From the NCBI RefSeq assembly GCF_002750975.1, contig NZ_PEJS01000001.1:1612001-1676000 (forward strand): DNA of 64,000 nucleotides, written 5' to 3'. Positions 30,588 to 44,235 of this stretch are shown here, in pieces; position 1 is the first letter of the stretch; every line of letters starts with the position of its first letter. This stretch comes from Stenotrophomonas indicatrix (lineage in GTDB: Bacteria; Pseudomonadota; Gammaproteobacteria; Xanthomonadales; Xanthomonadaceae). Under the pieces are notes generated by a model. It was not told the origin of the DNA, ran no database searches, and saw nothing but the letters and a program-made list of their open reading frames with translations. The position numbers and the translations under genes are program-made.

Positions 30588-30634
30588 CTCTCCCTCTCTC
30601 CTGGATTGATCCGGTGACTGACTGACGCGGAAAC

Positions 30635-30648
30635 TTGAATCGATCTAA
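30635..30648 (-). promoter_or_regulatory. LacI-type operator, proximal, TonB receptor 2
   Basis: TTGAATCGATCTAA, identical to the operator before GH92 at 31499. It lies 48 bases upstream of the receptor start. Confidence 0.75.
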
Positions 30649-30755
30649 TTCGTGATGCCGATCTTGCCTTCGCCCTGCAGATGCGACGAGCGCCTGGCAG
30701 ATGCCCTGACTCGTCCTGTCCTGCTCCCCAACTCCCGGGCCATCGCGATGTCGTC

Positions 30756-30769
30756 TTGGATCGATCTAA
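30756..30769 (-). promoter_or_regulatory. LacI-type operator, distal, TonB receptor 2
   Basis: TTGGATCGATCTAA, one base different from the proximal copy, centre 121 bp away. The spacing would suit looping by a tetramer or two dimers. Confidence 0.75.
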
Positions 30770-30871
30770 GCGATGGGCGGGGCGATTTTTAGCACGGCCA
30801 ACGCGCCGACGCATGTTGCTGCGCAATATGGCAGTGACGTGTCGTGCAAATGACCCTTCGCGGAAGAATGC

Positions 30872-30905: not shown

Positions 30906-31091
30906 GCCGGGCTGCGCCCGGCACCGCAGAGGCCTTCAGGCCAGGGCAACAGCAACAGCAACGGCTGGTTTCCTGCGGGATGGCGGGGTGGGTCCGGTTG
31001 CGGGGGACGCTGCAAGTACGTCCATGTAAGCTCGGTCGCGCTATCCATGGCGCTCACGCCCCCGCAACCGGACCCACCCCGCCTTCGACAG
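30906..31091 (-). repeat. composite palindromic element, unit A with flank
   Basis: The 102-base unit at 30982-31083 has perfect 25-base complementary arms (30982-31006, 31059-31083) around a 52-base core (31007-31058). The core holds an inner hairpin GCGCTAT/ATGGCGC. GACAG follows three bases after the right arm. On the other side lie a CAACAGCAACAGCAAC tract (30947-30962) and hairpins GGCCTTCAGGCC (30931-30942) and GCCGGGCTGCGCCCGGC (30906-30922). The strand given is the one on which arm mismatches in the sister copies become G-U pairs. Confidence 0.8.
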
Positions 31092-31129
31092 ATTTCCGCG
31101 ATTTGTCGGAATGGCATGGCGTGGTCCTG

Positions 31130-31238
31130 GTAGGTGTCGACCTTGGTCGACACGTGGATCCATGCCATGCATGGATGAAATCCAATCGATGATTTCGAAA
31201 TCGGTAGGAACATCCATCCGCGCACGGCGTGGATCTAC
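31130..31238. repeat. SMAG elements between units A and B
   Basis: 31130-31153 is a plus GTAG element with stem GTGTCGAC-CTTG-GTCGACAC. 31158-31176 is a GTAG-less hairpin (ATCCATGCC/GCATGGAT type). 31216-31238 is a minus GTAG element (GTAGATCCACGCC...). The stems differ in sequence, but the head and length are kept. Confidence 0.75.
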
Positions 31239-31252
31239 CAGATCTCGGGAAA

Positions 31253-31439
31253 CTGTCAGGGGTGGGGCGGTATGGGCAGGCAGGACCGTTGGCGCCATGG
31301 ATGGCGCCATCGAGCCCCCATGGATGGGTCTACGGCGTGTCCTGCCTGCACATACCGTCCCGCCCAGCTCGGTAGCCCGCCGTTGCTGTTGCTGTTTTCT
31401 TGGCCTGAAGGCCTCTGCGGGTGCCGGGCGCAGCCCGGC
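31253..31439 (+). repeat. composite palindromic element, unit B with flank
   Basis: The 104-base unit at 31261-31364 has 26-base arms (31261-31286, 31339-31364; 23 Watson-Crick pairs, two G-U on the plus strand, one mismatch) around a 52-base core (31287-31338). The core is the reverse complement of the unit A type. CTGTC sits three bases before the left arm. GTTGCTGTTGCTGTT (31382-31396) and hairpins at 31402-31413 and 31423-31439 follow, mirroring unit A. Confidence 0.8.
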
Positions 31440-31498
31440 CGAAGCCCCCCGCTCATGCTGCGCCGCAGAATGCATTGGGCGAAATTCCCATGCTCTAC

Positions 31499-31512
31499 TT
31501 GAATCGATCTAA
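31499..31512 (+). promoter_or_regulatory. LacI-type operator upstream of GH92
   Basis: TTGAATCGATCTAA, a 14-mer identical to the one before the divergent TonB receptor, 94 bases before the GH92 start. Confidence 0.75.
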
Positions 31513-31606
31513 ATCCGCCGGGGTGCGGATTTGTACTGATGGAAACGAGGGCTCGGCCTGTGCGGCCGGTTCTTCGCTGCCGCCCTGCCGCCAAGGAGTC
31601 CTGCCC

Positions 31607-34081
31607 GTGACCAGGTTGTCCCGCCGTCGTCCCGCCCGCCGCCTGTCGGCATTGTCCCATCGGCCCCTGGCCCGCATCGCCTGCCTGCTGGCACTGGCGG
31701 TGACGCCCTGGCTGCAGGCCGCACCGGCCGCGCTGGAACGCGAGGTCAATACCTTCATCGGCAGCAAGGATGACGGCAACACCTTCCCCGGTGCTTCGGC
31801 ACCGTTCGGCTTGATCCAGGTCAGCCCGATCGGCAGCCACTATTCGGGCTGGCGCTACGACGACGACAAGATCCGCGGCTTCGGCCACTCCTTCCTGTCC
31901 GGCGCCGGTTGCTGGGAGCAGGGTGGGCAGGTCTCGGTGCTGCCGGTGACCGGTTCGATCGGCCCCGGCGGCGACTTCGATACCGCCGATGCGAAAGCCT
32001 TCAATCACAAGACCTATGCGTCGGCCTACAGCCACGACGGTGAGATCGGCCAGGCCGGCTACTACAAGGTGCGCCTGACCAGCTACGGCGGCATCGACGC
32101 CGAAGCGACCGCGCGCACCCGCGCAGCTGCCGAGCGTTACACCTTCAGCCAGCGCCAGGGCGATGGCCACGTGCTGGTGAATGTCGGTCAGGCCAACGAG
32201 CGCCACTCGGTGATCGGCAGCGTGGTCGATGTGGTGGGTGACCGCGTGGTGGAAGGCAAGCTGGTCACCAAGAGTTTCTGCGGTGGGCACCAGTACACCA
32301 CCTGGTTCCGCATTGAGTTCGACCGCCCGTTCAAGGCGCATGGCACCTGGGGTGAGGGCGGCGGCCTGCCGGGCGCGCGCCACAGCATGGAAGGCGAGCA
32401 GAAGCCGAATGGCGCGTGGCTCAGCTTCGACCTGGCCAAGGGCCAGTCGGTCACCGCCGTCAGCGCGATTTCGCATGTGGATGCCGAAGGTGCGCGCACC
32501 AACCTGCGCGCCGAGGGCATGCAGGGCGGGGCGCTGCTGGGCTTCGAGCGCATGCGCGCGCTGTCGCAGCAATCGTGGCGTGAGCAGTTGGCACGCGTGC
32601 GTGTGCAGGGCGGCAATGGCGATGACCGCACCGTGTTCTACAGCGCGCTGTACCACGCGCTGCTGCAGCCGCTCACCGGCAGCGATGCCGACGGCCGTTA
32701 CCGCGGCTACGACGATGGCATCCATCGCGCCGATGGCTGGACCTACTACGAGTACTTCTCGCTGTGGGATACCTACCGTGCACAGAACCAGTGGCTGGCA
32801 CTGACGCGCCCGGACGTGGCGCGCGATATCGGCCGCAGCCTGCTGGCGATCGATGAGCAGGGCGGCTGGCTGCCGCGCTGGGGCTATGCCAACTTCGAGA
32901 CCAACATCATGACCGGCGACCCGGTCACCCCCTTCATGGTCGACCTGTGGCGCTTCGGTGCGCTCAAGGGCCGCGAAGGGCAGGCATGGGATGCGCTGCG
33001 CCGCAATGCGTTCGGTACACCGCCGCTGAACTCGCGTGCTGCCGGTCGCTCCGGCAACCCGACCTATCTGGACAAGGGCTACGTGGTCTACGACCGCGCG
33101 TTCCCGTCCAAGGGCATGGACGTCGATCCGCACCACGGCGGTTCGGCCACCTTGGAGTACGCGCTGGCCGACTGTGCGCTTTCGCAGATGGCCGATGGCC
33201 TCGGCCATGCGCAGGACGCGGCGACGCTGCGTGAGCGCGGCCGCAACTGGCGCAAGGTGTGGGACCCGCAGGTGCGCGACGCCGAGACCGGCTTCACCGG
33301 CTTCCCGCGCCCGCGTACCGAAGATGGCCAGTGGTACACACCGGCCGATGGCCATTACAGCCCACGCTCGCATCACGGTTTCCATGAAGGCACGGCGTGG
33401 CAGTACCAGTGGCTGGCGCAGCAGGACGTGCCGGGCCTGGTCGAAGCGATGGACGGCCGCGAACAGGCCGGCCGCCGCCTGGATGCTTTCTTCGCCATGG
33501 ACGCTTTGCAGGCCGACCCCCTCAATGCCGCCCGCAAGGAGTGGGTGGTCGGGCCGTACAGCTATTACAACCAGTTCCGCTACAACCCGAACAACGAACC
33601 GGACCTGCACTCGCCGTGGCTGTACACGCTGATCGGCCAGCCGTGGAAGACCGCAGCGGTGGTGCGTGCAGCGCAGCAGCTGTTCACCAATGCACCCAAC
33701 GGCGTGACCGGCAACGATGACCTCGGCACGATGTCGGCCTGGTACCTGTTCAGTGCGATCGGCGTGTACCCGGCGGTGCCGGGCAGCGGCGAGTTCCTGC
33801 TGCATACGCCGCGCTTTGCCAAGGTCGAGGTCGAGCTGGGCAATGGCCGCACCCTGCGCATCGAGGCACCTGGCGCCGATGGCCGCCGCCTGCAGTACGT
33901 GCAGGGCGTGCAGGTCGACGGCCAGGCACATGCCCCGGTATGGCTGGGCTGGAGCCAGCTGCAGCAGGGCCCGAAGCTGCGCTTCGCGCTGGACGGGCGG
34001 GCGCCGACCGAGGGCTGGGGCACGGCGGTCAAGGACCTGCCGGTGTCCTGGTGCGCGGCACCGGGCAGCCAGCTGCACTGA
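31607..34081 (+). CDS. GH92 family alpha-mannosidase, exported
   Basis: 824 residues. GH92 enzymes are calcium-dependent exo-alpha-mannosidases that trim high-mannose N-glycans. The N-terminal VNTFIGSKDDGNTFPGAS, SPIGSHYSGW and FGHSFLSGAGC blocks and the C-terminal GNDDLGTMSAWYLFSAIGVY block, which carries the conserved Asp pair of the active site, are diagnostic. GTG 31607 is chosen because AAGGAG (31593-31598) lies eight bases upstream; it gives a basic n-region (RLSRRRPARR) and a hydrophobic stretch ending LQAAP, a signal peptide. The longer in-frame form from 31421 would read through the operator. The enzyme should act in the periplasm on material brought in by the TonB receptors. Confidence 0.92.
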   Translation: MTRLSRRRPARRLSALSHRPLARIACLLALAVTPWLQAAPAALEREVNTFIGSKDDGNTFPGASAPFGLIQVSPIGSHYSGWRYDDDKIRGFGHSFLSGAGCWEQGGQVSVLPVTGSIGPGGDFDTADAKAFNHKTYASAYSHDGEIGQAGYYKVRLTSYGGIDAEATARTRAAAERYTFSQRQGDGHVLVNVGQANERHSVIGSVVDVVGDRVVEGKLVTKSFCGGHQYTTWFRIEFDRPFKAHGTWGEGGGLPGARHSMEGEQKPNGAWLSFDLAKGQSVTAVSAISHVDAEGARTNLRAEGMQGGALLGFERMRALSQQSWREQLARVRVQGGNGDDRTVFYSALYHALLQPLTGSDADGRYRGYDDGIHRADGWTYYEYFSLWDTYRAQNQWLALTRPDVARDIGRSLLAIDEQGGWLPRWGYANFETNIMTGDPVTPFMVDLWRFGALKGREGQAWDALRRNAFGTPPLNSRAAGRSGNPTYLDKGYVVYDRAFPSKGMDVDPHHGGSATLEYALADCALSQMADGLGHAQDAATLRERGRNWRKVWDPQVRDAETGFTGFPRPRTEDGQWYTPADGHYSPRSHHGFHEGTAWQYQWLAQQDVPGLVEAMDGREQAGRRLDAFFAMDALQADPLNAARKEWVVGPYSYYNQFRYNPNNEPDLHSPWLYTLIGQPWKTAAVVRAAQQLFTNAPNGVTGNDDLGTMSAWYLFSAIGVYPAVPGSGEFLLHTPRFAKVEVELGNGRTLRIEAPGADGRRLQYVQGVQVDGQAHAPVWLGWSQLQQGPKLRFALDGRAPTEGWGTAVKDLPVSWCAAPGSQLH

Positions 34082-34177
34082 GCCGGGCTGTGCCGTTCGA
34101 GGCAACCCAGCGAACGGCACGGCACGACAGGGCCGCGATCCATTAGGCTTGAGCATCCATCGGAGTGCGGGAAGACG

Positions 34178-35227
34178 ATGAACGACAACAGCGACAGTTC
34201 CAGCAAGCGTTCCGGCAAGGCGGTGACGGTGACCGACATCGCCCGTGCCATCGGCGTTTCGCGCGCGACCGTGTCGCTGGTGCTGCGCGGCAGTCCGCTG
34301 GTCAACGTCGATACCCGCGCCCGGGTCGAGGCTGAGCTTCGCCGCCAGCGTTACGTCTACAACCGCGCTGCAGCGAACCTGCGGCGGCGCACGTCTTCCA
34401 GCATCGCCCTGGTCATCAACGATCTGTCCAACCCGTTCTTCGCCGAATTCGCCTCCGGTGTGGACGAGGCACTGGGCGGACGCGGCTACGTGACCCTGCT
34501 CGGCAGTACCGGCGAGTCGCCCGAGCGGCAGCAGGCGGTGCTGTCGACATTGATGGAACACACGCCTGCGGGCCTGATCCTGTCGCCGGCCGAAGGCAGC
34601 GATGCCACGCTGCTGCGGCAGGTGCTGGGCGCCAACGCCAACGTACTGCTGTTCAACCGCGAGCTGGAAGGCGCCGACTGGGACTTCCTGACCCTGGACA
34701 ACCAGCATGGTGCCTACCTGGCCACCCGTCACCTGATCGAGCGCGGCCATCGCCAGATCGCATTCTTCGGTGGCCACGCGGCATCGAGTTCCTGCCACCA
34801 GCGTCGTGCCGGTTTCCAGCAGGCCCTGGCCGAGGCCGGGCTGGCATTGCCGCCGGGCTGGATGATCGAATCTGCACCCAACCGCCTGGAAGCGGCCGCG
34901 CGCACCGATGAACTGTTCGTCGACGGCCATCGGCCGAGCGCAGCAGTCTGCTACAACGACACCGTCGCGCTGGGCCTGATGCTGGGCCTGAACTCGCGCG
35001 GCATCCGTCCCGGCGGTGACTTCGCGGTGACCGGCTTCGACGATATTTCCGAAGCGTCGGTTGCCGTGCCGCCGTTGACCACACTGACGGCCGACCCGCG
35101 CGAACGCGGGCGGCAGGCGGCATCCCTGCTGCTGCAGCGGCTGGAGGAACCGGATGCGCCACCACGGCGCACGGTCGCCCCGGTACAGTTGCGCATCCGC
35201 GAAAGCAGCGCCGCACGTCCGAATTGA
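34178..35227 (+). CDS. LacI-family transcriptional regulator of the glycan locus
   Basis: 349 residues: helix-turn-helix at about 12-32 (VTDIARAIGVSRATVSLVL), hinge helix, then a periplasmic-binding-protein-like effector domain (VINDLSNPFFAEFASGVDEAL ... FDDISEASVAVPPLTTL). It is the only LacI-type gene in the window and sits between the mannosidase and the importer, so it is the natural candidate to bind the ATCGAT-centred palindromes. The ligand may be mannose, a mannoside or fructose. Binding to these sites is inference; a second palindrome type at 30872 is an alternative target. Confidence 0.9.
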   Translation: MNDNSDSSSKRSGKAVTVTDIARAIGVSRATVSLVLRGSPLVNVDTRARVEAELRRQRYVYNRAAANLRRRTSSSIALVINDLSNPFFAEFASGVDEALGGRGYVTLLGSTGESPERQQAVLSTLMEHTPAGLILSPAEGSDATLLRQVLGANANVLLFNRELEGADWDFLTLDNQHGAYLATRHLIERGHRQIAFFGGHAASSSCHQRRAGFQQALAEAGLALPPGWMIESAPNRLEAAARTDELFVDGHRPSAAVCYNDTVALGLMLGLNSRGIRPGGDFAVTGFDDISEASVAVPPLTTLTADPRERGRQAASLLLQRLEEPDAPPRRTVAPVQLRIRESSAARPN

Positions 35228-35302
35228 ATTGATGCTTCGCTCCTGAACTGATTGCACCCTTCCACGCACCAACGACCTTTCGCGCATCGAGGCGCGTACC
35301 GC

Positions 35303-36616
35303 ATGCCGATCTCCGCAACGCCCCGCCCATCAGGTTCCCCGGGCAACCAGCCTGCCGTCACCAACGGCAAGGCGCTGGCCGTGGTCACCACCATCTTCTT
35401 CATGTGGGGCTTCCTGACCTGCCTCAACGACATCCTGATTCCGCATCTGAAGGCGGTGTTCGAGCTGAACTACGCCAAGGCAATGCTGGTGCAGTTCACT
35501 TTCTTCGGCACCTACTTCCTGATGTCGCTGCCGGCAGGGCGGCTGGTTGCAGCGCTGGGTTACAAGAAGGGCATCGTGGCCGGCCTGGTGATCGCCGGCA
35601 TCGGTGCACTGGGCTTCTGGCCGGCCGCTGAGCTGCGCGTCTATGGCGCCTTCCTCGGTGCATTGTTCGTGCTGGCCACCGGCATCACCGTGCTGCAGGT
35701 GGCGGCCAACCCGTATGTCGCCCTGCTTGGTCCGGAGCAGACCAGTTCCAGCCGCCTGACCCTGGCGCAGGCGCTGAACTCGCTGGGTACGGCCATCGCG
35801 CCGATCTTCGGCGGCATGCTGATCCTGTCCAACACGGCCATGAGCGGCGAGCAGATCGCCGCGCTGCCGGCCGCCGAGCAGCTCGCCTACCGTACCGCCG
35901 AGGCACACGCAGTGCAGGGCCCTTACGTCGGCCTGGCCGTGGCGCTGGTGCTGCTGGCCCTGTTCGTATTCCTGTTCCGCCTGCCGGCGCTGAACGACAC
36001 CACCGAGCAGGCTGACCAGGGGCATCAGCACAGCTATCTGGATGCGCTGCGCAAGCGCCACCTGCTGCTGGGCGTGCTCGGCATCTTCTTCTACGTTGGC
36101 GCCGAAGTGTCGATCGGCAGCTTCCTGGTCAATTACCTGTCGATGCCCACCATTGGCGGTTTCAGCGAGCAGGAAGCCACCCACTATGTGTCGGCCTACT
36201 GGACGATGGCGATGATCGGTCGCTTCGCCGGTTCGGCGCTGCTGGCGCGCTTCTCGCCGAGCCGCCTGCTGGCGATCTTCGCGCTGGTCAACGTGGGCCT
36301 GCTGGCGCTGACCATGATGACTTCCGGCAATGTCGCGCTGTACTCGGTGGTGGCGATCGGCCTGTTCAATTCGATCATGTTCCCGACCATCTTCGCGCTC
36401 AGCATCGAGCGCCTGGGCCCGTTGACCAGCAAGGGTTCGAGCCTGCTGATCATGGCCATCGTCGGTGGCGCGGTGGTGCCTTACCTGCAGGGCGTCCTGG
36501 CTGACCACATCGGCGTGCAGGCCAGCTTCATCCTGCCGCTGCTGTGCTACGGCTACATCATTTTCTACGGACTGGTCGGCGCCCGCGCGCCGGCTGCCGG
36601 CACGCAGGGAGGCTGA
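35303..36616 (+). CDS. FucP-type sugar:proton symporter (MFS)
   Basis: 437 residues with about 12 membrane helices, of the FucP/GluP group of the major facilitator superfamily. MWGFLTCLNDILIPHLK in helix 1 and the inner PAGRLVAALGYKKGIVAGL loop are family hallmarks. It imports a monosaccharide across the inner membrane with protons; the neighbours (kinase, mannose isomerase, mannosidases) suggest mannose, with fructose, glucose or fucose as alternatives. ATG 35303 is chosen; an in-frame ATG at 35252 would add a hydrophilic 17-residue tail. The kinase starts seven bases after the stop. Confidence 0.88.
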   Translation: MPISATPRPSGSPGNQPAVTNGKALAVVTTIFFMWGFLTCLNDILIPHLKAVFELNYAKAMLVQFTFFGTYFLMSLPAGRLVAALGYKKGIVAGLVIAGIGALGFWPAAELRVYGAFLGALFVLATGITVLQVAANPYVALLGPEQTSSSRLTLAQALNSLGTAIAPIFGGMLILSNTAMSGEQIAALPAAEQLAYRTAEAHAVQGPYVGLAVALVLLALFVFLFRLPALNDTTEQADQGHQHSYLDALRKRHLLLGVLGIFFYVGAEVSIGSFLVNYLSMPTIGGFSEQEATHYVSAYWTMAMIGRFAGSALLARFSPSRLLAIFALVNVGLLALTMMTSGNVALYSVVAIGLFNSIMFPTIFALSIERLGPLTSKGSSLLIMAIVGGAVVPYLQGVLADHIGVQASFILPLLCYGYIIFYGLVGARAPAAGTQGG

Positions 36617-36623
36617 GTCGAAA

Positions 36624-37619
36624 ATGGGTTCCATCGTCTGCTTCGGCGAAATTTTGATCGATCTACTAGCGCAGCCGCCGGCCTCGGCCGATACCCCGCG
36701 CGCGTTCCTGCAGTACGCCGGAGGTGCACCGGCCAACGTCGCGGTGGCCGCCGCGCGGCTGGGTGCGAAGACCCAGTTCGTCGGCATGCTCGGCCGCGAC
36801 ATGTTCGGCGACTTCCTGGCGGAGAGCCTGAGCGAACACGGCGTCGGCACCGACTACATCGTGCGTACCGACGCGGCCAAAACCGCGCTGGCCTTCGTTG
36901 CACTGGACGCGGGCGGCGAACGCAGCTTCAGCTTCTACCGTCCGCCTGCCGCCGACCTGCTGTTCCGTGACAGCGATTTCCAGGCCGGCTGCTTCGATGG
37001 TGCGCAGTGTTTCCACGTCTGTTCCAACAGCCTGACCGAAGCGGACATTGCCGAAGCGACGTTCGCCGGCATGGACCGTGCGCGTGCGGCCGGCGCGGTG
37101 GTCAGCCTGGATCTCAACCTGCGTCCGGCGCTGTGGCCGGCCGATGTCGACCCGACACCGCGCCTGTGGCAGGCGCTGGAGCGCGCCGACCTGGTCAAGC
37201 TGTCGCGCGAGGAACTGGACTACCTGGCCGCCCCGCTGGGCGATGACGGCGAGGCGCTGGTGCTGCGTCGCCTGCTGGCCGCGCAGGCACGCTGGGTGAT
37301 CATCACCGACGGCGCCGCCACGCTGCATTGGTATACCCGTGAAACGCAGGGCAAGGTCAGCAGTTTCCGCGTCGCCACCGTGGACACCACCGCTGCCGGT
37401 GATGCCTTCGTCGGCGGCGTGCTGGTTGGCCTGCTGGAGCGGGGTGGGGCAGGTGCGGGCTTTGCCGCGTTCTGCCAGGACCCGCAGGCGATCGCCGCCA
37501 CGCTGCGCTTCGGCGCCGCCGTTGGCGCACTGGCGGTGACCCGCAAGGGCGCGTTCGCTGCAATGCCCTCGTTCGATGAAGTGCAGCAGCTGCTGCAGCT
37601 ACAGGATCTCCCCGCATGA
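36624..37619 (+). CDS. PfkB-family sugar kinase, probable fructokinase
   Basis: 331 residues, ribokinase/PfkB fold. FGEILIDLLAQ, YAGGAPANVAVAAARLGA (sugar site) and VDTTAAGDAFVGGVLVGLL (second signature with the catalytic Asp) are present. It most likely phosphorylates fructose made by the adjacent mannose isomerase to fructose-6-phosphate. The ATG start is at 36624, and the gene overlaps the isomerase gene by four bases. Codons 10-15 (ATT TTG ATC GAT CTA CTA) use rare leucine codons for this genome and spell a near-match to the LacI-type operator at 36653-36666. Confidence 0.88.
   Translation: MGSIVCFGEILIDLLAQPPASADTPRAFLQYAGGAPANVAVAAARLGAKTQFVGMLGRDMFGDFLAESLSEHGVGTDYIVRTDAAKTALAFVALDAGGERSFSFYRPPAADLLFRDSDFQAGCFDGAQCFHVCSNSLTEADIAEATFAGMDRARAAGAVVSLDLNLRPALWPADVDPTPRLWQALERADLVKLSREELDYLAAPLGDDGEALVLRRLLAAQARWVIITDGAATLHWYTRETQGKVSSFRVATVDTTAAGDAFVGGVLVGLLERGGAGAGFAAFCQDPQAIAATLRFGAAVGALAVTRKGAFAAMPSFDEVQQLLQLQDLPA
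36653..36666 (+). promoter_or_regulatory. possible intragenic LacI-type operator in the kinase gene
   Basis: TTTGATCGATCTAC matches the locus consensus at 12 of 14 positions and lies 29 bases inside the kinase reading frame. The unusual CTA and TTG codons that create it hint that it is kept for binding. It could act as a roadblock or auxiliary operator. Confidence 0.4.
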
Positions 37620-38842
37620 GCACCTCACCCGATTTCCGTTCCCCCGCGTTCCTGCGCGCCCACATCGCCGATACGATGGCGTTCTACCATCCGCGCTGCA
37701 TCGACCCGAAGGGCGGCTTCTTCCATTACTTCCGTGACGACGGCAGCATCTACGATGCCAGCCATCGTCATCTGGTGAGCAGCACCCGCTTCGTCTTCAA
37801 CTACGCCATGGCCTACCGCGAATTCGGCAACGCCGAGTATCGCGACGCGGTCGAGCACGGGGTGCGCTACCTGCGCGAGGTTCACCGCAACCCGGCCACC
37901 GGCGGCTACGCCTGGACTCTGCGCGATGGTGTGGTAGAGGACGACATGAACCACTGCTACGGCGTGGCCTTCGTGCTGCTCGCCTACAGCTGTGCGTTGA
38001 AGGCAGGCATCGAAGAAGCCCGCACGTGGATGGACGAAACCTGGCAGCTGCTGCAGGCGCGCTTCTGGGAAGCCGAGCACGGCCTGTACAGGGACGAGGC
38101 CGACGGCCAGTGGAACTTCACCGGCTACCGCGGCCAGAACGCCAACATGCACATGTGCGAGGCGATGCTGGCCGCGTTCGAGGCCAGTGGTGAGCAGCGC
38201 TATGTCGAGCGTGCGCTGCAGCTGGCCGACAACATGACCCGCCGCCAGGCCGCAAAGGCCGGCGGTCTGGTCTGGGAACACTACGACGTCAACTGGAACA
38301 TCGACTGGGACTACAACCTGGATGATCCCAAGCACCTGTTCCGGCCGTGGGGCTTCCAGCCCGGGCACCAGACCGAGTGGGCCAAGCTGCTGCTGATCCT
38401 GGACCGTCACGTGCAGGCCGACTGGCTGGTGCCGACCGCGCAGCATCTGTTCGATGTGGCCGTAGAGCGCAGCTGGGACGAGGTGCGCGGCGGCCTGTAC
38501 TACGGCTTCGCCCCGGAGTCGCGCCGGCAGCCGGGCATGGACGGCGCGCCGATCGGCGGTGACAGCTTCGTCTGTGATGACGACAAGTATTTCTGGGTGC
38601 AGGCCGAGACCTTGGCTACCGCCGCGCTGATGGCCGCGCGCACCGGCGATGACCGCTATTGGCAGTGGTACGACCGTATCTGGGCGTACTCGTGGGAGCA
38701 CTTCGTCGACCATCGATACGGCGCATGGTTCCGCATCCTCGACGCCGACAACCGCAAGTACAGCGATGAGAAGAGCCCGGCCGGCAAGGTGGATTACCAC
38801 ACCATGGGTGCCTGCTACGAAGTGCTGAACGTCGTGCGTTGA
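37616..38842 (+). CDS. AGE-family D-mannose isomerase
   Basis: 408 residues, N-acylglucosamine 2-epimerase superfamily, (alpha/alpha)6 barrel. Conserved His and Glu/Arg blocks include SSTRFVFNYAMAYREFG, MNHCYGVAFVLLAYS, NANMHMCEAMLAAFEA, FQPGHQTEWAKLLLIL and KVDYHTMGACYE. Members of about this length in this context interconvert D-mannose and D-fructose (mannose isomerase type) without phosphorylation. Translational coupling to the PfkB kinase (ATGA overlap) fits a route mannose to fructose to fructose-6-phosphate. N-acylglucosamine epimerase activity is a less likely alternative. Confidence 0.85.
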   Translation: MSTSPDFRSPAFLRAHIADTMAFYHPRCIDPKGGFFHYFRDDGSIYDASHRHLVSSTRFVFNYAMAYREFGNAEYRDAVEHGVRYLREVHRNPATGGYAWTLRDGVVEDDMNHCYGVAFVLLAYSCALKAGIEEARTWMDETWQLLQARFWEAEHGLYRDEADGQWNFTGYRGQNANMHMCEAMLAAFEASGEQRYVERALQLADNMTRRQAAKAGGLVWEHYDVNWNIDWDYNLDDPKHLFRPWGFQPGHQTEWAKLLLILDRHVQADWLVPTAQHLFDVAVERSWDEVRGGLYYGFAPESRRQPGMDGAPIGGDSFVCDDDKYFWVQAETLATAALMAARTGDDRYWQWYDRIWAYSWEHFVDHRYGAWFRILDADNRKYSDEKSPAGKVDYHTMGACYEVLNVVR

Positions 38843-38902
38843 GGTCTGCCGCGCTGCGCGCTCGCCGGACGTGGTCCGGCGCTGCCGTGGCGTGTGGCAT
38901 TG

Positions 38903-38925
38903 GTAGCGCCGGGTCATACCCGGCG
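38903..38925 (+). repeat. SMAG palindrome before beta-mannosidase
   Basis: GTAG head with stem CGCCGGGT-CAT-ACCCGGCG. It ends 18 bases before the GH2 start, so it lies in the leader of that message; it may uncouple or stabilise the mRNA between the isomerase and GH2 genes. Confidence 0.8.
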
Positions 38926-38943
38926 GAAAAACAGGAGTATCAC

Positions 38944-41562
38944 GTGCATCGCATTTCCAACGCTGTCCGTCTGCTGCTGTTGTTGATCGCCCTTGGCGCC
39001 TTCCCGGCAGGCGCCGCACCGCTGCAGGCGCAATGGGAGTTCCGGCTGCTGCCCGGTGACGCGCAGGGCGCGGCCCATCCTGGCCTGCAGCAGTGGCGCG
39101 CGGCCACGGTGCCAGGCAGCGTGCACACCGATCTGCTGGCGCATGAGCTGATCCGCGATCCCTACGTCGGTGCGCCCGAAGCCGAGCTGCAGTGGATCGG
39201 TCTGGCCGACTGGGAGTACCGCGCCCGTTTCGATGTGGACGCTGCCAGCTTGGCAAAGGCCCATGCCGAGCTGCGCTTCGACGGCCTGGACACCTATGCC
39301 GAGGTGACGCTCAACGGCAAGCCGCTGCTGCGCGCCGACAATGCCCACCGCACCTGGCATGCCCGCGTCGAAGATCGCCTGCGTGCGAAGGGCAATGAGC
39401 TGCAGATCGTGTTCCGTTCGCCGATCCGCACGCTGCTGCCCGGCGTGCAGGCAATGCCGCACAGGATTGCCGGCAACTATCCTTCGCCCTACGGTGATGA
39501 ACCCAAGGACGCGATGGTTGGCAACTTCGCGCGCAAGCCGGCGTACCACTTCGGGTGGGACTGGGGCCCGCGCTACGTTACTGCCGGCGTCTGGCGGGGC
39601 GTTGACCTGCAGGCATGGGATGCGCATCGGTTGACCGACCTGGCCGTACGCACTGATGCGCTTGATGCAGAAAACGCAAAGCTGGCGGTAGTGCTGCAGG
39701 TGGAGCAGGACGCGGTCGCCGGCCCGGTGGCGGTGGACGTTGAAGTGCGGGATCCCGACGGCCGCAGCGTCGCACGGGTGCAGCGCACGGTCGACCTGAA
39801 GCCCGGCCGGAACAGCGTGGACGTGCCGGTTGAACTGGCCAAGCCGCGGCGCTGGTGGCCGGTCGGCCATGGTGCGCAGGACCGCTACACCGTGCAGGCG
39901 CGCCTGGACGGCAGTGCCGATCCGGTGCTGGCGCGCGAACAGCGCATCGGCCTGCGCACCGTCGAACTGCGCCGCGAGCAGGACGACAAGGGAGGGCAGG
40001 GCTTCGCCTTCGTCATCAACGGGGCGCCGATCTTCGCCAAGGGCGCGAACGTGATCCCCTTCGACGCCTTCCCCGCGCGCGTTGATGCTGCGCGCCTGCG
40101 CCAGGTACTGGTCGCCGCGCGCGATGCCAACATGAACATGCTGCGCAACTGGGGCGGCGGCTACTACGAGGACGATGCGTTCTTCGACATCGCCGACGAA
40201 CTGGGCCTGCTGGTCTGGCAGGACTTCATGTTCGGCGGTGGCATGCAGCCGGGTTACGACCCGGCATTCCGCGCCAGCGTGGTCGCCGAGGCACGCGACA
40301 ACGTGCGCCGGCTGCGCCACCATCCCAGCATCGTGCTGTGGTGTGGCAACAACGAAGAAGAAACGGCGTGGAAGGACTGGGGCCACGGCCGTGACCTGAA
40401 GTCCGCCGATCCGGCGTTCGCAGCGAAGGTCTGGCAGGGCTACGTCGACCTGTTCGGCAACGACCTGCGCCAGGTGGTGAGCGAAGATGGGTTGGGCGTG
40501 CCGTACTGGTCCAGTTCGCCCAGCAACGACCTGGACGAGAAGGCCAACGACTCCACCCGTGGCGACAAGCATTACTGGCAGGTGTGGGGCAATCCTGCAT
40601 TGCCGGTGCAGGCCTATCTGCGCGAGACCCCGCGCTTCATGTCCGAGTACGGCCTGCAGGCCTGGCCAGCGGTGGCGACGGTGGACCAGATCGCCACCCG
40701 TGCCGAACAGCGAATCGACAGCCCGGTGATCCGTGCGCACCAGAAGTTCATGGCCGGCGAGGGCAATACACGCCTGCTGCACTACATCGAACTGGGCTAC
40801 GGCACGCCGAAGGACTTCGAGGACTTCGTCTACCTGAGCCAGGTGATGCAGGCCGATGGCATCGCCCTGGCGGCGCTGCACCATCGCGCTTCGCGACCTT
40901 ACACGATGGGCTCGCTGTACTGGCAGCTCAACGATGTCTGGCCGGGAGCATCGTGGTCGAGCGTGGACTACTTCGGTCGCTGGAAGGCGCTGCACTATGC
41001 CGCGCGGCGCTTCTTCGCGCCGGTTACGGTGGCCGCACTGCGCGATGAAGGCAGCACGCGCGTGCGCCTGATCAACGATGGTGCCGCGCTGGATGCACGT
41101 TGGCGCTTGCGGGTGATGGACGTTGAGGGCAAGGTGCTGCGCCGACGCGAGCAGGCGGTGACCTTGGCTGCCGCCGGGGTGACCGATATCGGCACCTACG
41201 CGGATGCCGAGCTGCTGGCCGGCGCCGAGCCGGCGCGGACGGTGGCGGTATTCGAGCTGCTGCAGGATGGCAAGGTGACGGCGCGGCAGGTGGTCGGCTT
41301 CGTTGAAGCCAAGGACCAGGTGCTGCCACGCCAGCAGTTGACGTCAACGCTGGCAATCGACGGTGACCACTATCGCCTGCGGCTGCACAGCGCTGCGCTG
41401 GTGCGCGCAGCCTGGATCGATTTCGGCGCGCTCGACGTGCAGGTGGAAGACAACCTGCTGGACCTGCTGCCGGGCGAAACCCGCGACATCGCCGTGCGTG
41501 GCCCAGTGGATCTGGCCGCGCTGCGCGAGGCGTTGAAGGTGAAGACCCTCAACGATCGTTGA
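38944..41562 (+). CDS. GH2 family beta-mannosidase, exported
   Basis: 872 residues. After a signal peptide (NAVRLLLLLIALGAFPAGAAP), it has a jelly-roll sugar-binding domain (about 25-190), Ig-like domains and a TIM-barrel catalytic domain. The acid/base is Glu471 in WCGNNEE, the nucleophile Glu568 in FMSEYGLQAWP; FGWDWGPRYVTAGVWRG is typical of beta-mannosidases. It should hydrolyse the beta-mannose linked to chitobiose in the N-glycan core, or beta-mannosides, in the periplasm. GTG 38944 is chosen for AGGAG at 38933-38937; the longer frame from 38839 would include the SMAG hairpin. Last gene of the locus. Confidence 0.92.
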   Translation: MHRISNAVRLLLLLIALGAFPAGAAPLQAQWEFRLLPGDAQGAAHPGLQQWRAATVPGSVHTDLLAHELIRDPYVGAPEAELQWIGLADWEYRARFDVDAASLAKAHAELRFDGLDTYAEVTLNGKPLLRADNAHRTWHARVEDRLRAKGNELQIVFRSPIRTLLPGVQAMPHRIAGNYPSPYGDEPKDAMVGNFARKPAYHFGWDWGPRYVTAGVWRGVDLQAWDAHRLTDLAVRTDALDAENAKLAVVLQVEQDAVAGPVAVDVEVRDPDGRSVARVQRTVDLKPGRNSVDVPVELAKPRRWWPVGHGAQDRYTVQARLDGSADPVLAREQRIGLRTVELRREQDDKGGQGFAFVINGAPIFAKGANVIPFDAFPARVDAARLRQVLVAARDANMNMLRNWGGGYYEDDAFFDIADELGLLVWQDFMFGGGMQPGYDPAFRASVVAEARDNVRRLRHHPSIVLWCGNNEEETAWKDWGHGRDLKSADPAFAAKVWQGYVDLFGNDLRQVVSEDGLGVPYWSSSPSNDLDEKANDSTRGDKHYWQVWGNPALPVQAYLRETPRFMSEYGLQAWPAVATVDQIATRAEQRIDSPVIRAHQKFMAGEGNTRLLHYIELGYGTPKDFEDFVYLSQVMQADGIALAALHHRASRPYTMGSLYWQLNDVWPGASWSSVDYFGRWKALHYAARRFFAPVTVAALRDEGSTRVRLINDGAALDARWRLRVMDVEGKVLRRREQAVTLAAAGVTDIGTYADAELLAGAEPARTVAVFELLQDGKVTARQVVGFVEAKDQVLPRQQLTSTLAIDGDHYRLRLHSAALVRAAWIDFGALDVQVEDNLLDLLPGETRDIAVRGPVDLAALREALKVKTLNDR

Positions 41563-41575
41563 GAGAGGCGCCCTG

Positions 41576-41694
41576 GTAGGTGCCAACCTTGGTTGGCACG
41601 CTTTGGGCGGGCATTACGAATGCCAACCGAGGTTGGCATCTACCGAAGGCGGTTTCCCGCAGCGTACCCCGGTAGCGCCGGGCCATGCCCGGCG
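41576..41694. repeat. three SMAG palindromes after beta-mannosidase
   Basis: 41576-41599 (plus, stem GTGCCAACC/GGTTGGCAC), 41620-41643 (minus, stem ATGCCAACC/GGTTGGCAT) and 41672-41694 (plus, stem CGCCGGG/CCCGGCG). Two stem subfamilies lie side by side between convergent genes. Confidence 0.85.
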
Positions 41695-41711
41695 AGCGCA
41701 GAGGATAGCTG

Positions 41712-42407
41712 TTAGAACTGGATCTGCTGGAAGTTCTCGACGCGATCATGGCCGTTGGCGGCGTCGCCGATGCGCGGCATCGGGTAGTCGTCCAGGCGAT
41801 CGATCAGGCGTGTCTGCAGGCCGGCTTCGCGGGCGGCGTCCAGTTCCTCGACCACGTCGGACAGGAACAGGATCTCGCCAGCGGGAACGCCGATGGCCTG
41901 CACGATGTGGCGGTAGCTGTCAGCCTCGCGCTTGCCACCGACTTCGGTATCGAACCAGCCCGACACCAGCGGACTCAGGTCACCGGCGTCGCTGAAGCCG
42001 AAGAACAGCTTCTGCGCCGGCACCGATCCGGAGGAGTACACATACAGCGGCAGGCCCGAGGCGTGCCACCCCTTCAATACCGGCGCTACCTCCGGGTAGA
42101 AGTGCGCGGTGTAGTCGCCACGACGGTAGCCTGCGTCCCAGATCAGCCCCTGCAGGGCCTTCAGTGCGGTGTGCTTGCGGTCCTGGTCGATCCAGCCCTG
42201 CAGCGTCTCGGCCACCAGGCTGTCCTGGCAGGCGCCGCCGATCTCGGTGGCGACTGCATCCAGCCAGCGACGCACCTCCGGTTGCTGGCCATGGTCGGCG
42301 ACGAAGCCGGGCAGCGCCTGGCGTGCGTACGGGAACAGCACGTTCTTGACGAACGAGATGCTGCTGGTGGTGCCTTCGATGTCGGTCAGGATGACGCGGG
42401 GCTGCAT
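41712..42407 (-). CDS. mtnC: acireductone synthase (enolase-phosphatase E1)
   Basis: 231-residue HAD-superfamily enzyme that enolises and dephosphorylates 2,3-diketo-5-methylthiopentyl-1-phosphate. The nucleophile motif [21 protein letters not shown], the [16 protein letters not shown] segment [12 protein letters not shown] and the metal motif [12 protein letters not shown] are diagnostic. It is the third gene of mtnB-mtnD-mtnC, three bases after mtnD, in methionine salvage from methylthioadenosine. Confidence 0.95.
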
Positions 42408-42410
42408 TGA

Positions 42411-42968
42411 TCAGGACGCCTGGGTCGGAATGTAACGGGGGAATTTCTGCGCGATGTCAGTGCCAGTGAAGTGACCGACCCAGCCATCCGGTTCGGTGAA
42501 GAAGCGGATCGCCACGAAGCTGGGCTCATCACCCATGTCGAACCAGTGGGTGGTGCCGTCGGGCACGGCGATCAGGTCATCCTTCACGCACTCGATCTCA
42601 TAGACCTTGTCGCCCACGTGCAGGGTGAACAGGCCCGAGCCGGCGACGAAGAAGCGTACTTCGTCTTCCTTGTGGAAGTGTTCGTCGAGGAATTTCTTCC
42701 TCAGCTCGGCGCGGTTCGGGTTGTCCGGGGCGATCGAGGCCACGTCCACGCTCTTGAAGCCGCGTTCGGCAACCAGGCGGTCGATGTCGGCGCGGTAGGC
42801 GGCGAACACTTCGTCCTGGCTTGCGCCCGGGGCGACCGGCGCGGTGGCCTGCCAGCGCTCAAAGGTGACGCCGATCTTCTGCAGTTCGGCAGCGATGATC
42901 GCGCCGTCCTGGGTGTCCAGCAGCGGCGATTCGGGATGGGTATCGTCGTAGATGCGCAGTCGGCTCAT
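42411..42968 (-). CDS. mtnD: acireductone dioxygenase
   Basis: 185-residue cupin. Metal ligands are [11 protein letters not shown] (His, His, Glu) and THWFDMG (His). With iron it makes the methionine precursor 2-keto-4-methylthiobutyrate; with nickel it makes an off-pathway product. ATG 42968 (MSRLRIYDD) is the family start; the longer frame to 43157 overlaps mtnB. Between mtnB and mtnC. Confidence 0.94.
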
Positions 42969-43059
42969 GGCGGCAGCTTGAACGTCTCGGGGAAGGACAG
43001 GGTAGCAGGGTGGCATTGACGGCCTGATTCCAGAACGGCATCTGGCCGTGCCGGAAACT

Positions 43060-43701
43060 TCAGCGGCGCAGCTTGCGCAGCTCCAGCTCGCAGTGCAGCA
43101 GGAATTCGAACGCTTCCATGTGCCGCCGTGCTTCGGCCATGTCGCGGCCCCAGGCATACAGGCCGTGGCCGTCGATCAGGTAGCCCCATAGGGTCTGCGT
43201 GTCGAGCAGGGCGTCGACCTGGGCCGACAGCACGTCCATGTCCTGGGTGTTGGCAAACACCGGGATGTCGATGGCCATCTCGTGGGTGCTGTTGCCCGCG
43301 AAGGCTTTCAGCAGTTCGTAGCCTTCCACCCGGATATGGCCCTGCGGTGCATACAGGCGCGAGGCGATGGTCTGCACCGGCGAATGCGTATGCAGCACGC
43401 AGCCGATCTCCGGGAAGCGGCGATACAGCTGGGTATGCAGCAGGGTTTCGGCGGACGGGCGCAGCGGGCGGCCGACGGCCTTGCCATCGAAGTCCACGAC
43501 CATGATGTCGTCTTCGATCAGGCGGCCCTTGTCCTTGCCGGAGACGGTGATCGCGGCGTGGCGGTCGTCCAGGCGGTGGGAAAAGTTGCTGCTGGTGGCC
43601 GGGGTCCAGCCGGCCTGGGCCAGTTCGCGGACGTTGTCGATCAGCAGCTGGGCCAGTTCGCTCAGGCGCGCGGTGTCGTAGGGGAAGGTGGGGGTGTTCA
43701 T
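43060..43701 (-). CDS. mtnB: methylthioribulose-1-phosphate dehydratase
   Basis: 213-residue class II aldolase/adducin fold. [23 protein letters not shown], zinc ligands in [11 protein letters not shown] and the late His in [11 protein letters not shown] define MtnB. ATG 43701 is chosen; an in-frame TTG at 43728 would add nine residues, and neither has a clear Shine-Dalgarno sequence. First gene of the salvage group; MtnA and a nucleosidase or phosphorylase must be encoded elsewhere. Palindromic unit C lies 73 bases upstream. Confidence 0.94.
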
Positions 43702-43774
43702 GGGGGCGATTTTACTGGATTCGGCCAACGGCTGAGCCCCTCGTGGCTGGCGTCAGAAGCAGATTCCGTGGGTT

Positions 43775-43886
43775 GGCCGGTCGGGTAGGCTGCGCAGGGG
43801 ACGCCGTAAACCCGTCCATGGGGGCTTGGCCGCGGCATCCATGCCGCGGACACCCCTGCGCAGCCCACCCGACCGGCCACGGACAG
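43775..43886 (-). repeat. palindromic unit C
   Basis: 104 bases: arms 43775-43800 and 43853-43878 (25 of 26 pairs, the odd one G-U on the minus strand) around a 52-base core (43801-43852) with inner hairpin CCGCGGCAT/ATGCCGCGG. GACAG follows at 43882-43886. The outer flank lacks the CAACAG tract of units A, B and D and runs into the mtnB start. Confidence 0.8.
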
Positions 43887-43953
43887 GTTCCGCGCGGCCA
43901 GCCACGGATTGAAGAAAGAAAGGCAGAAGCGGGTCGCTTCGCTGCGCGTGCTC

Positions 43954-44041
43954 GGAGCGGAGCATGGCTCCGCTCTACAGTAGATTCGTCCCCGAACATT
44001 CATTTCCCGGAACGCTTCATCCACGCATGGCGTGGATCTGC
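43954..44041. repeat. SMAG elements between units C and D
   Basis: 43954-43978 is a minus GTAG element with stem GAGCGGAGCC/GGCTCCGCTC type. 44019-44041 is a degenerate copy (ATCCACGCATGGCGTGGAT stem) whose head reads GCAG instead of GTAG on the minus strand. Confidence 0.7.
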
Positions 44042-44057
44042 CGGACGGGGCAGGAGG

Positions 44058-44235
44058 CTGTCGGAGGTGGGGCGGGTTGGGTTCGCGGGGGTGTCCGCGG
44101 CATGGATGCCGCGGCCAAGCCTCCAGGGACGGATTCACGGCGTCCCCCGCGAACCCAACCTGCCCCGCCAAACCCTCAGCCCTGCTGTTGCCGTTGCTTC
44201 GGCTTCAACGGCGGGTGCAGGGCCGCAGGCCCTGC
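44058..44235 (+). repeat. palindromic unit D with flank
   Basis: Unit 44066-44169: arms 44066-44091 and 44144-44169 (24 Watson-Crick pairs, two G-U on the plus strand) around a 52-base core (44092-44143) in the opposite orientation to unit C. CTGTC lies three bases before the left arm. GCTGTTGCCGTTGC (44184-44197) and hairpins GCCGTTG/CAACGGC (44190-44212) and GCAGGGCC/GGCCCTGC (44217-44235) follow, ending close to the permease stop. Confidence 0.8.

Follow-up and report, generated by a model that had tools for sequence, protein, structure and literature searches.

The closest described relative of the element reported here is the motif TwoAYGGAY (Rfam RF01731). It was listed in 2010 as probably an RNA and not cis-regulatory (PMC2864571, available in part). 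The accessible excerpts of PMC4333381 describe a tandem GA in one of its stems and predict CsrA binding from motif matches. The two hairpins are reported, in the literature as far as available, to differ in stability. The same portions of the TwoAYGGAY literature contain no report of a tested function and no mention of high copy number, inverted pairing or an association with REPs. The CsrA consensus from SELEX is RUACARGGAUGU, mainly in six-base loops (PMC7652899, in excerpt), and RsmN and RsmA recognise ANGGAN (PMC3791407, in excerpt). GGA in hairpin loops is also described, in sources available in part, for CsrB, RsmX, RsmY and RsmZ and for RsmU, an RsmA-binding sRNA of Xanthomonas encoded 3' of a comEA-like gene. 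In these RNAs several GGA motifs lie in one RNA gene or 3'UTR, whereas the unit described here has two hairpins on a long stem and about 145 copies.

Dispersed repeats are the second group for comparison. SMAG/REP elements and REPINs with their RAYT (SM1–SM13) resemble the units in being dispersed and intergenic, in forming inverted pairs with compensated stems and in occupying the same loci. The TIR families of the TIRYT genes 1152 and 4509 of S. maltophilia are moderately abundant, and one of them is self-complementary and often found in close pairs, like the unit (PMC3733652, in excerpt).

The window, i.e. the whole stretch of DNA analysed, comprises 64,000 nt of Stenotrophomonas indicatrix. 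An earlier note on this DNA had described four palindromic units with 25–26-nt arms and a 52-nt core. Re-reading of the window bears out their places and dimensions. The features are as follows.

30982..31083, minus strand: Unit A, 102 nt; its arm type is common to 32 units of the genome
31019..31026, minus strand: P3 loop of Unit A, CATGGACG
31042..31049, minus strand: P2 loop of Unit A, CATGGATA; without an intact closing pair, and with tandem GA in the stem of P2
31130..31153, plus strand: REP GTAGGTGTCGACCTTGGTCGACAC between Units A and B
31216..31238, minus strand: SM4-like REP (GTAGATCCACG...) between Units A and B
31261..31364, plus strand: Unit B, 104 nt
31296..31303, plus strand: P2 loop of Unit B, CATGGATG, with GGA in the hexaloop AUGGAU
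31319..31326, plus strand: P3 loop of Unit B, CATGGATG
43775..43878, minus strand: Unit C, 104 nt
43813..43820, minus strand: P3 loop of Unit C, CATGGACG
43836..43843, minus strand: P2 loop of Unit C, CATGGATG
44019..44041, minus strand: SM4-like REP with the head GCAG between Units C and D
44066..44169, plus strand: Unit D, 104 nt
44101..44108, plus strand: P2 loop of Unit D, CATGGATG
44124..44131, plus strand: P3 loop of Unit D, CAGGGACG

The SM4 reference sequence was taken from PMC3686654. When the units are aligned so that the CTGTC box is 5', a 25–26-bp stem (P1) encloses the 52-nt core, which consists of the P2 hairpin and a bulged P3 hairpin. As the minus strand carries Units A and C and the plus strand Units B and D, the two sites are inverted pairs whose boxes point inward. 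The A/B pair is flanked by genes for a TonB-dependent receptor and a GH92 glycosidase, the C/D pair by genes for an amino-acid permease and a class II aldolase-type protein. The GACAG/CTGTC box that had been noticed three bases off the arm is present at this distance in all four units; genome-wide, a box lies within 10 nt of the arm in 100 of 142 units. The arms of Units A–D contain six mismatches in all and five of these are G.T on the core strand, as had also been noted.

Two further observations concern the surroundings of the units. Three ACTTGAATCGATCTAA-like motifs (window positions 30633–30651, 30754–30772 and 31497–31515) are located between the TonB receptor and GH92 genes and are possibly a regulator site. 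By eye, the flanks of class II units form an extra outer stem CCGTGGCTGG/CCAGCCACGAGG, as around Unit C (43720–43910), and a tail GAGGGGCTCAGCCGTTGGC recurs in such flanks, again for example around Unit C.

There are at least 145 copies of the unit in this genome, and no description of the family as a high-copy repeat was found in the literature search. BLAST with Unit B gave at least 47 matches (best 40 of 110 candidates scored). A covariance-model search, which the earlier note had proposed, was performed with a model (R1) built from 21 units. It yielded at least 150 matches in the own genome (best 150 of 5266 candidates scored), 144 of them at E ≤ 1e-5; a second model adds one unit (G000:C1:3334583). 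The 150 R1 matches fall into 104 sites, 58 single and 46 double. All but one of the double sites (45 of 46) are inverted pairs with the same minus-plus order, and the inner gap measures 140–205 bp in 36 of the 45. Genome-wide analyses refer to the 142 matches of 100–105 nt. Eight matches of other lengths were dropped, five of which represent an extended variant.

These five units (G000:C1 1038600–1038870, 1501320–1501560, 2736150–2736415, 2867600–2867820 and 3391290–3391500) carry a multi-hairpin insert in P2. It comprises a GCATGC-tipped hairpin, the stem of which varies among copies, and two AGGA-loop hairpins. In the predicted folds both AGGA loops are present in all five inserts, and the P3 GGA loop in four of the five units. 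In one other unit (G000:C1:3036878, L121) the 3' part passes into a long C homopolymer, perhaps due to slippage or an assembly fault.

The family extends beyond the species. R1 matched at least 24 of 31 genomes of the genus and at least 35 of 119 genomes of the family (at least 17 of 54 genera). For the class, a model of the core plus 10 bp (R2) found the core in at least 36 of 185 sampled genomes; for the phylum it did so in at least 18 of 200, all 18 belonging to the same class (the share of the 200 outside this class is not listed). The family, class and phylum searches used stricter filters than the genus search and scored the best 24–33 candidates per genome, compared with 128 in the genus search, and these counts are lower bounds. 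A pattern scan of named genomes returned at least 119 stretches. Judging by their titles, the 80 stretches listed are presumably from Gammaproteobacteria, with the exception of one entry named only 'Proteobacteria bacterium'.

Pairing is maintained throughout the structure. In 21 aligned units 98.2% of 901 stem cells pair. Double-sided changes occur in 25 of 43 pairs (shuffled mean 8.8; reached in 0 of 500 shuffles), a count to be read with the relation by descent of copies inside one genome, which also bears on the loop counts below. The arms, P2 and P3 vary by compensated substitutions while both loops stay fixed; covariation had been noted for the inner hairpin and is found in both P2 and P3. 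Of the 1053 cells in 39 cores taken from a wide range of genera, 92.7% are paired; double-change cells number 280 versus 83.6 after shuffling, and the covariation score is 0.697 versus 0.182. The number of pairs with a double-sided change in this set (20) is not above that of the shuffles, 142 of 500 of which reach 20, because most stem columns are highly variable.

The units are mosaics. The arms had been called private, which applies to many of them and not to all: 98 distinct 5' arms are present in 142 units. Typing of 138 of the 142 units gives many combinations of arm, P2 and P3, some of them linked; in one arm class all 17 units have a single common P2-P3 pair. In relatives, the orthologous C/D site can have a different arm, P2 and P3 without loss of pairing (four copies, by eye). 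In 30 loci of this site, including the own one (of 41 genomes), eight contain an inverted pair and ten one match somewhere in the locus. There is no match at E ≤ 1e-4 in the other 12, two of which end at a contig end. Units are accordingly subject to turnover at this site.

Mismatches in the arms are strongly strand-biased. On the box strand, 109 distinct arm pairs contain 71 G.T, nine A.C and 41 mismatches of other kinds (two of the 142 units with more than five mismatches are left out). In named records the ratio of G.T to A.C is 25:2 for Stenotrophomonas, 63:3 for Xanthomonas and 55:11 for others (12 of 93 rows with weak arms omitted). RNA tolerates a G.U pair, not an A.C pair. Strand-asymmetric mutation was rejected as the source of the bias. 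In the conserved flanks C>T is not correspondingly more frequent than G>A: there are 11 versus 26 deviations upstream and 10 versus 8 downstream (not polarised by ancestry). RNA with the sequence of the box strand is therefore the simplest and likely product, with single-stranded DNA as the rival. Selection on an RNA from one strand, as suggested by the earlier note, is strongly supported by covariation, the G.T bias and the fixed loops.

The P2 loop is CATGGATG in 138 and the P3 loop CANGGANG in 135 of the 142 units found by R1. By column, the P2 loop reads C142 A142 T142 G142 G141 A142 T141 G140. The P3 loop reads C141 A142, a free N (T70 G41 A25 C6), G141 G142 A141, Y and G141, so that N is a purine in 66 units and a pyrimidine, the strict AYGGAY form, in 76. 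ACANGGAYGU is found in 53 of 142 P3 loops. R1, R2 and the genome pattern were derived from motif-bearing copies and the constancy of the loops is therefore partly built in. By motif, the fixed P2 and P3 loops are an RsmA/CsrA-binding signature. Conservation and predicted fold place GGA in two hairpin loops per unit, and in more in the extended variant. The two GGA loops of Unit B are 23 nt apart, which, as a motif match, would suit binding by an RsmA/CsrA dimer.

Some features count against this reading or find no explanation in it. P2 is longer and stronger than most CsrA SELEX ligands. Furthermore, the conserved bases RAGC and TTYACGGCG outside the loops are not explained by RsmA. In favour of the reading, a csrA gene is present in all ten genomes tested. 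These include two genus members with no unit matches. Hence csrA does not need the units and these, if they act on the system, would modulate rather than enable it.

The earlier note had left open whether the family is already named. The name found is TwoAYGGAY, and from the alignments RF01731 is the family in which the units are most suitably placed, as divergent members. Over its full length and with both loops matched, the RF01731 model aligns to a unit from another genus (L215) at 45.6 bits (gathering cut-off 43 bits). In the own genome it gives at least nine matches, all nine of which are units on the right strand, with one over the cut-off (43.2 bits). A search of 12 genomes (best candidates, up to 109 per genome) gave at least 61 matches at E ≤ 0.01 in seven genomes, at least three of them over the cut-off; L215 is not among the matches listed. 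None was found in 14 control genomes. At gathering cut-offs Rfam has no match anywhere in the window. RF01731 is not listed for the window units (A/B at E ≤ 5, B alone and C/D at E ≤ 10) or for 20 loci searched at E ≤ 1 (17 from the own genome), and it exceeds the cut-off in none of 18 records of other genera. Thus, Rfam detects only the edge of this group.

The units share with TwoAYGGAY the outer stem, the two hairpins with ANGGAY loops, the AAG/GAG linker, the CGG..GUC 3' side and the unequal stability of the hairpins. The median over 138 units is -14.8 kcal/mol for P2 and -5.4 kcal/mol for P3, by a different measure from that of the TwoAYGGAY paper. In this genome 35 of 142 units, A but not B, C or D, have the tandem GA in P2; it also occurs in five of 49 named Stenotrophomonas/Xanthomonas matches and in 16 of 46 others. 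In contrast to TwoAYGGAY, the P3 loop of the units is ANGGAY, including the 66 purine forms, and not strictly AYGGAY, and most copies tested score under the Rfam cut-off.

Other Rfam and sRNA candidates fit less well. Ysr224 (RF02770), a Yersinia sRNA, weakly matches the reverse strand of many units (about 22–36 bits). These scores are far under the Ysr224 cut-off of 70, and the strand is the opposite one; perhaps Ysr224 is a relative in Yersinia whose annotation is on the other strand. The remaining low-threshold Rfam matches are largely microRNA models fitting long hairpins. An identity with RsmU was rejected, since the comEA-like 3' region has other GGA motifs and not the 104-nt unit. This region (L354, G000:C1:732330 region, about 1767–2062 of the locus), which follows the comEA-like gene (Pfam HHH_3) on its 3' side, spans 296 nt and contains 12 GGA motifs. 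Four of the 12 are unpaired in one predicted fold, and a terminator-like hairpin with a T-run follows. From its RsmU-like position, the stretch is possibly a CsrB-like RNA of this genome.

The family is thus probably a high-copy, mosaic, REP-associated variant of TwoAYGGAY which putatively binds RsmA/CsrA as RNA. The proposal of CsrA binding is prior (PMC4333381, in excerpt). Copy number, strand bias, mosaicism and the REP link are added here.

REPs (called with up to four mismatches to any of 14 sequences) are found in the inner gap of 37 of 45 inverted pairs and in none of 104 control stretches, which are locus ends and probably mostly coding. For unpaired units, a REP lies within 180 nt on the 5' side in 50 of 59 cases versus 10 of 59 on the 3' side. 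The units are not REPs themselves. Length and head sequence rule out a REP/SMAG identity: REPs are about 25 nt long with a GT(A/G)G head, whereas the units, with 102–104 nt, have no such head in their flank profiles and flank the REPs.

This association, together with the REPIN-like inverted pairing at 45 of 46 two-unit sites and the differences between relatives at the C/D site, would also fit an element acting as DNA. A REP-type (HUH/Y1) transposase would recognise its single-stranded fold, in the manner of REP/RAYT and IS200/IS605, and strand-biased wobble and fixed loops would then reflect DNA recognition. Such an element is unlikely. A linked transposase had been suggested as a check. Y1 transposases gave 86 matches in 31 genomes; 33 of these loci were read with as much as 1.5 kb of flank (less in four), and none has a unit next to it, the one match in these flanks being at chance level (E 0.25). 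The repeats at these loci are REPs or two other kinds. Furthermore, the CANGGANG loop with its free N is an RNA-binding consensus. From their association with REPs, the units probably travel or settle with these; no transposase of their own was found at the loci read. Of the earlier suggestion of a structured mobile or regulatory RNA family, the structured RNA stands. Copy number, site turnover and REPs support a connection with mobile repeats, with transposition itself putative.

Two kinds of long repeat flank the Y1 transposases of the genus (L157, L160, L161 and L164; L163, L172, L178 and L180). One is self-complementary, GGGGTCAGATCCCTTT...AAAGGG.TCTGACCCC, the other is AAAAGGGGACGGAGGGGATTAAGTCG. 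The lead to the TIRs of genes 1152 and 4509 (PMC3733652, in excerpt) was followed and their identity with the units rejected: units occur at 0 of 33 transposase loci, and the transposases of the genus are flanked by different repeats (GGGGTCAGATCCCTTT... and AAAAGGGGACGGAGGGG...). From their GGGGWSAS motif we infer that the GGGGTCAGATCCCTTT/AAAAGGGGACGGAGGGG repeats are the published TIRs. The units are neither REPs nor either of the two repeat types beside transposases here.

The neighbouring genes (orientation from a home-made gene caller) are convergent at 41 of the 104 sites, tandem at 52, divergent at eight and unresolved at three. The gaps of at least 60 bp in the window are convergent in three, tandem in 16 and divergent in four cases. 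With convergent neighbours at 41 of 104 sites, the GGA strand is frequently antisense to a neighbour, which counts against the RsmA/CsrA reading. Avoidance of divergent promoters, preference for convergent genes and the very stable 25–26-bp stem would suit a general RNA hairpin of 3' ends that protects mRNA or acts as an RNase III site or attenuator, its loops being conserved only through recent copying. This is quite improbable, since the loops are fixed while the stems vary, also in distant genera (the latter set being selected by pattern). A TTTT within 15 nt on the 3' side is found in only four of 142 units (opposite strand, 12 of 142), and most units are therefore not classical terminators. 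Template switching, copying arm onto arm and making palindromes perfect without selection, is very improbable: it would agree with the perfect arms of 63 of 142 units and with whole modules changing together at orthologous sites, but neither a strand bias of the G.T mismatches nor fixed GGA loops nor conservation in many genera would be expected from it.

For the preferred reading, a TwoAYGGAY variant binding RsmA/CsrA as RNA, the following course may be proposed. The DNA of a unit would serve as template of a small structured RNA, read 5'-CTGTC-unit-3', and read-through transcription that starts inside the pair or passes across it would yield RNA of the unit strand. In this RNA the P1 stem of about 26 bp, free in sequence and kept in pairing, would present the strong P2 and the weak P3 hairpin with GGA in six-base ANGGAN loops. 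An RsmA dimer would bind the folded RNA at P2 and P3. The long stem would suit cutting by RNase III, which would release the unit RNA. Units on read-through transcripts may bind RsmA locally or jointly serve as a sponge. Their dispersal across the genome would take place together with REP/REPIN repeats or beside them, and copies would go on swapping their arm, P2 and P3 modules.

More tentatively, the family may be a REP-linked mobile repeat with an RsmA/CsrA-hairpin cargo. Its more than 100 copies would form a distributed, tunable RsmA sponge, and read-through transcripts would receive RsmA sites from them; module exchange would diversify the stems, with the loops remaining fixed. A single genome offers about 145 natural variants of TwoAYGGAY, which show a strand bias, positions that are free or fixed, and a longer form with additional GGA loops. 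The CsrA/RsmA hypothesis is therefore directly testable. If it is true, a repeat family would titrate a global regulator, which would link REP-type repeats to post-transcriptional control.
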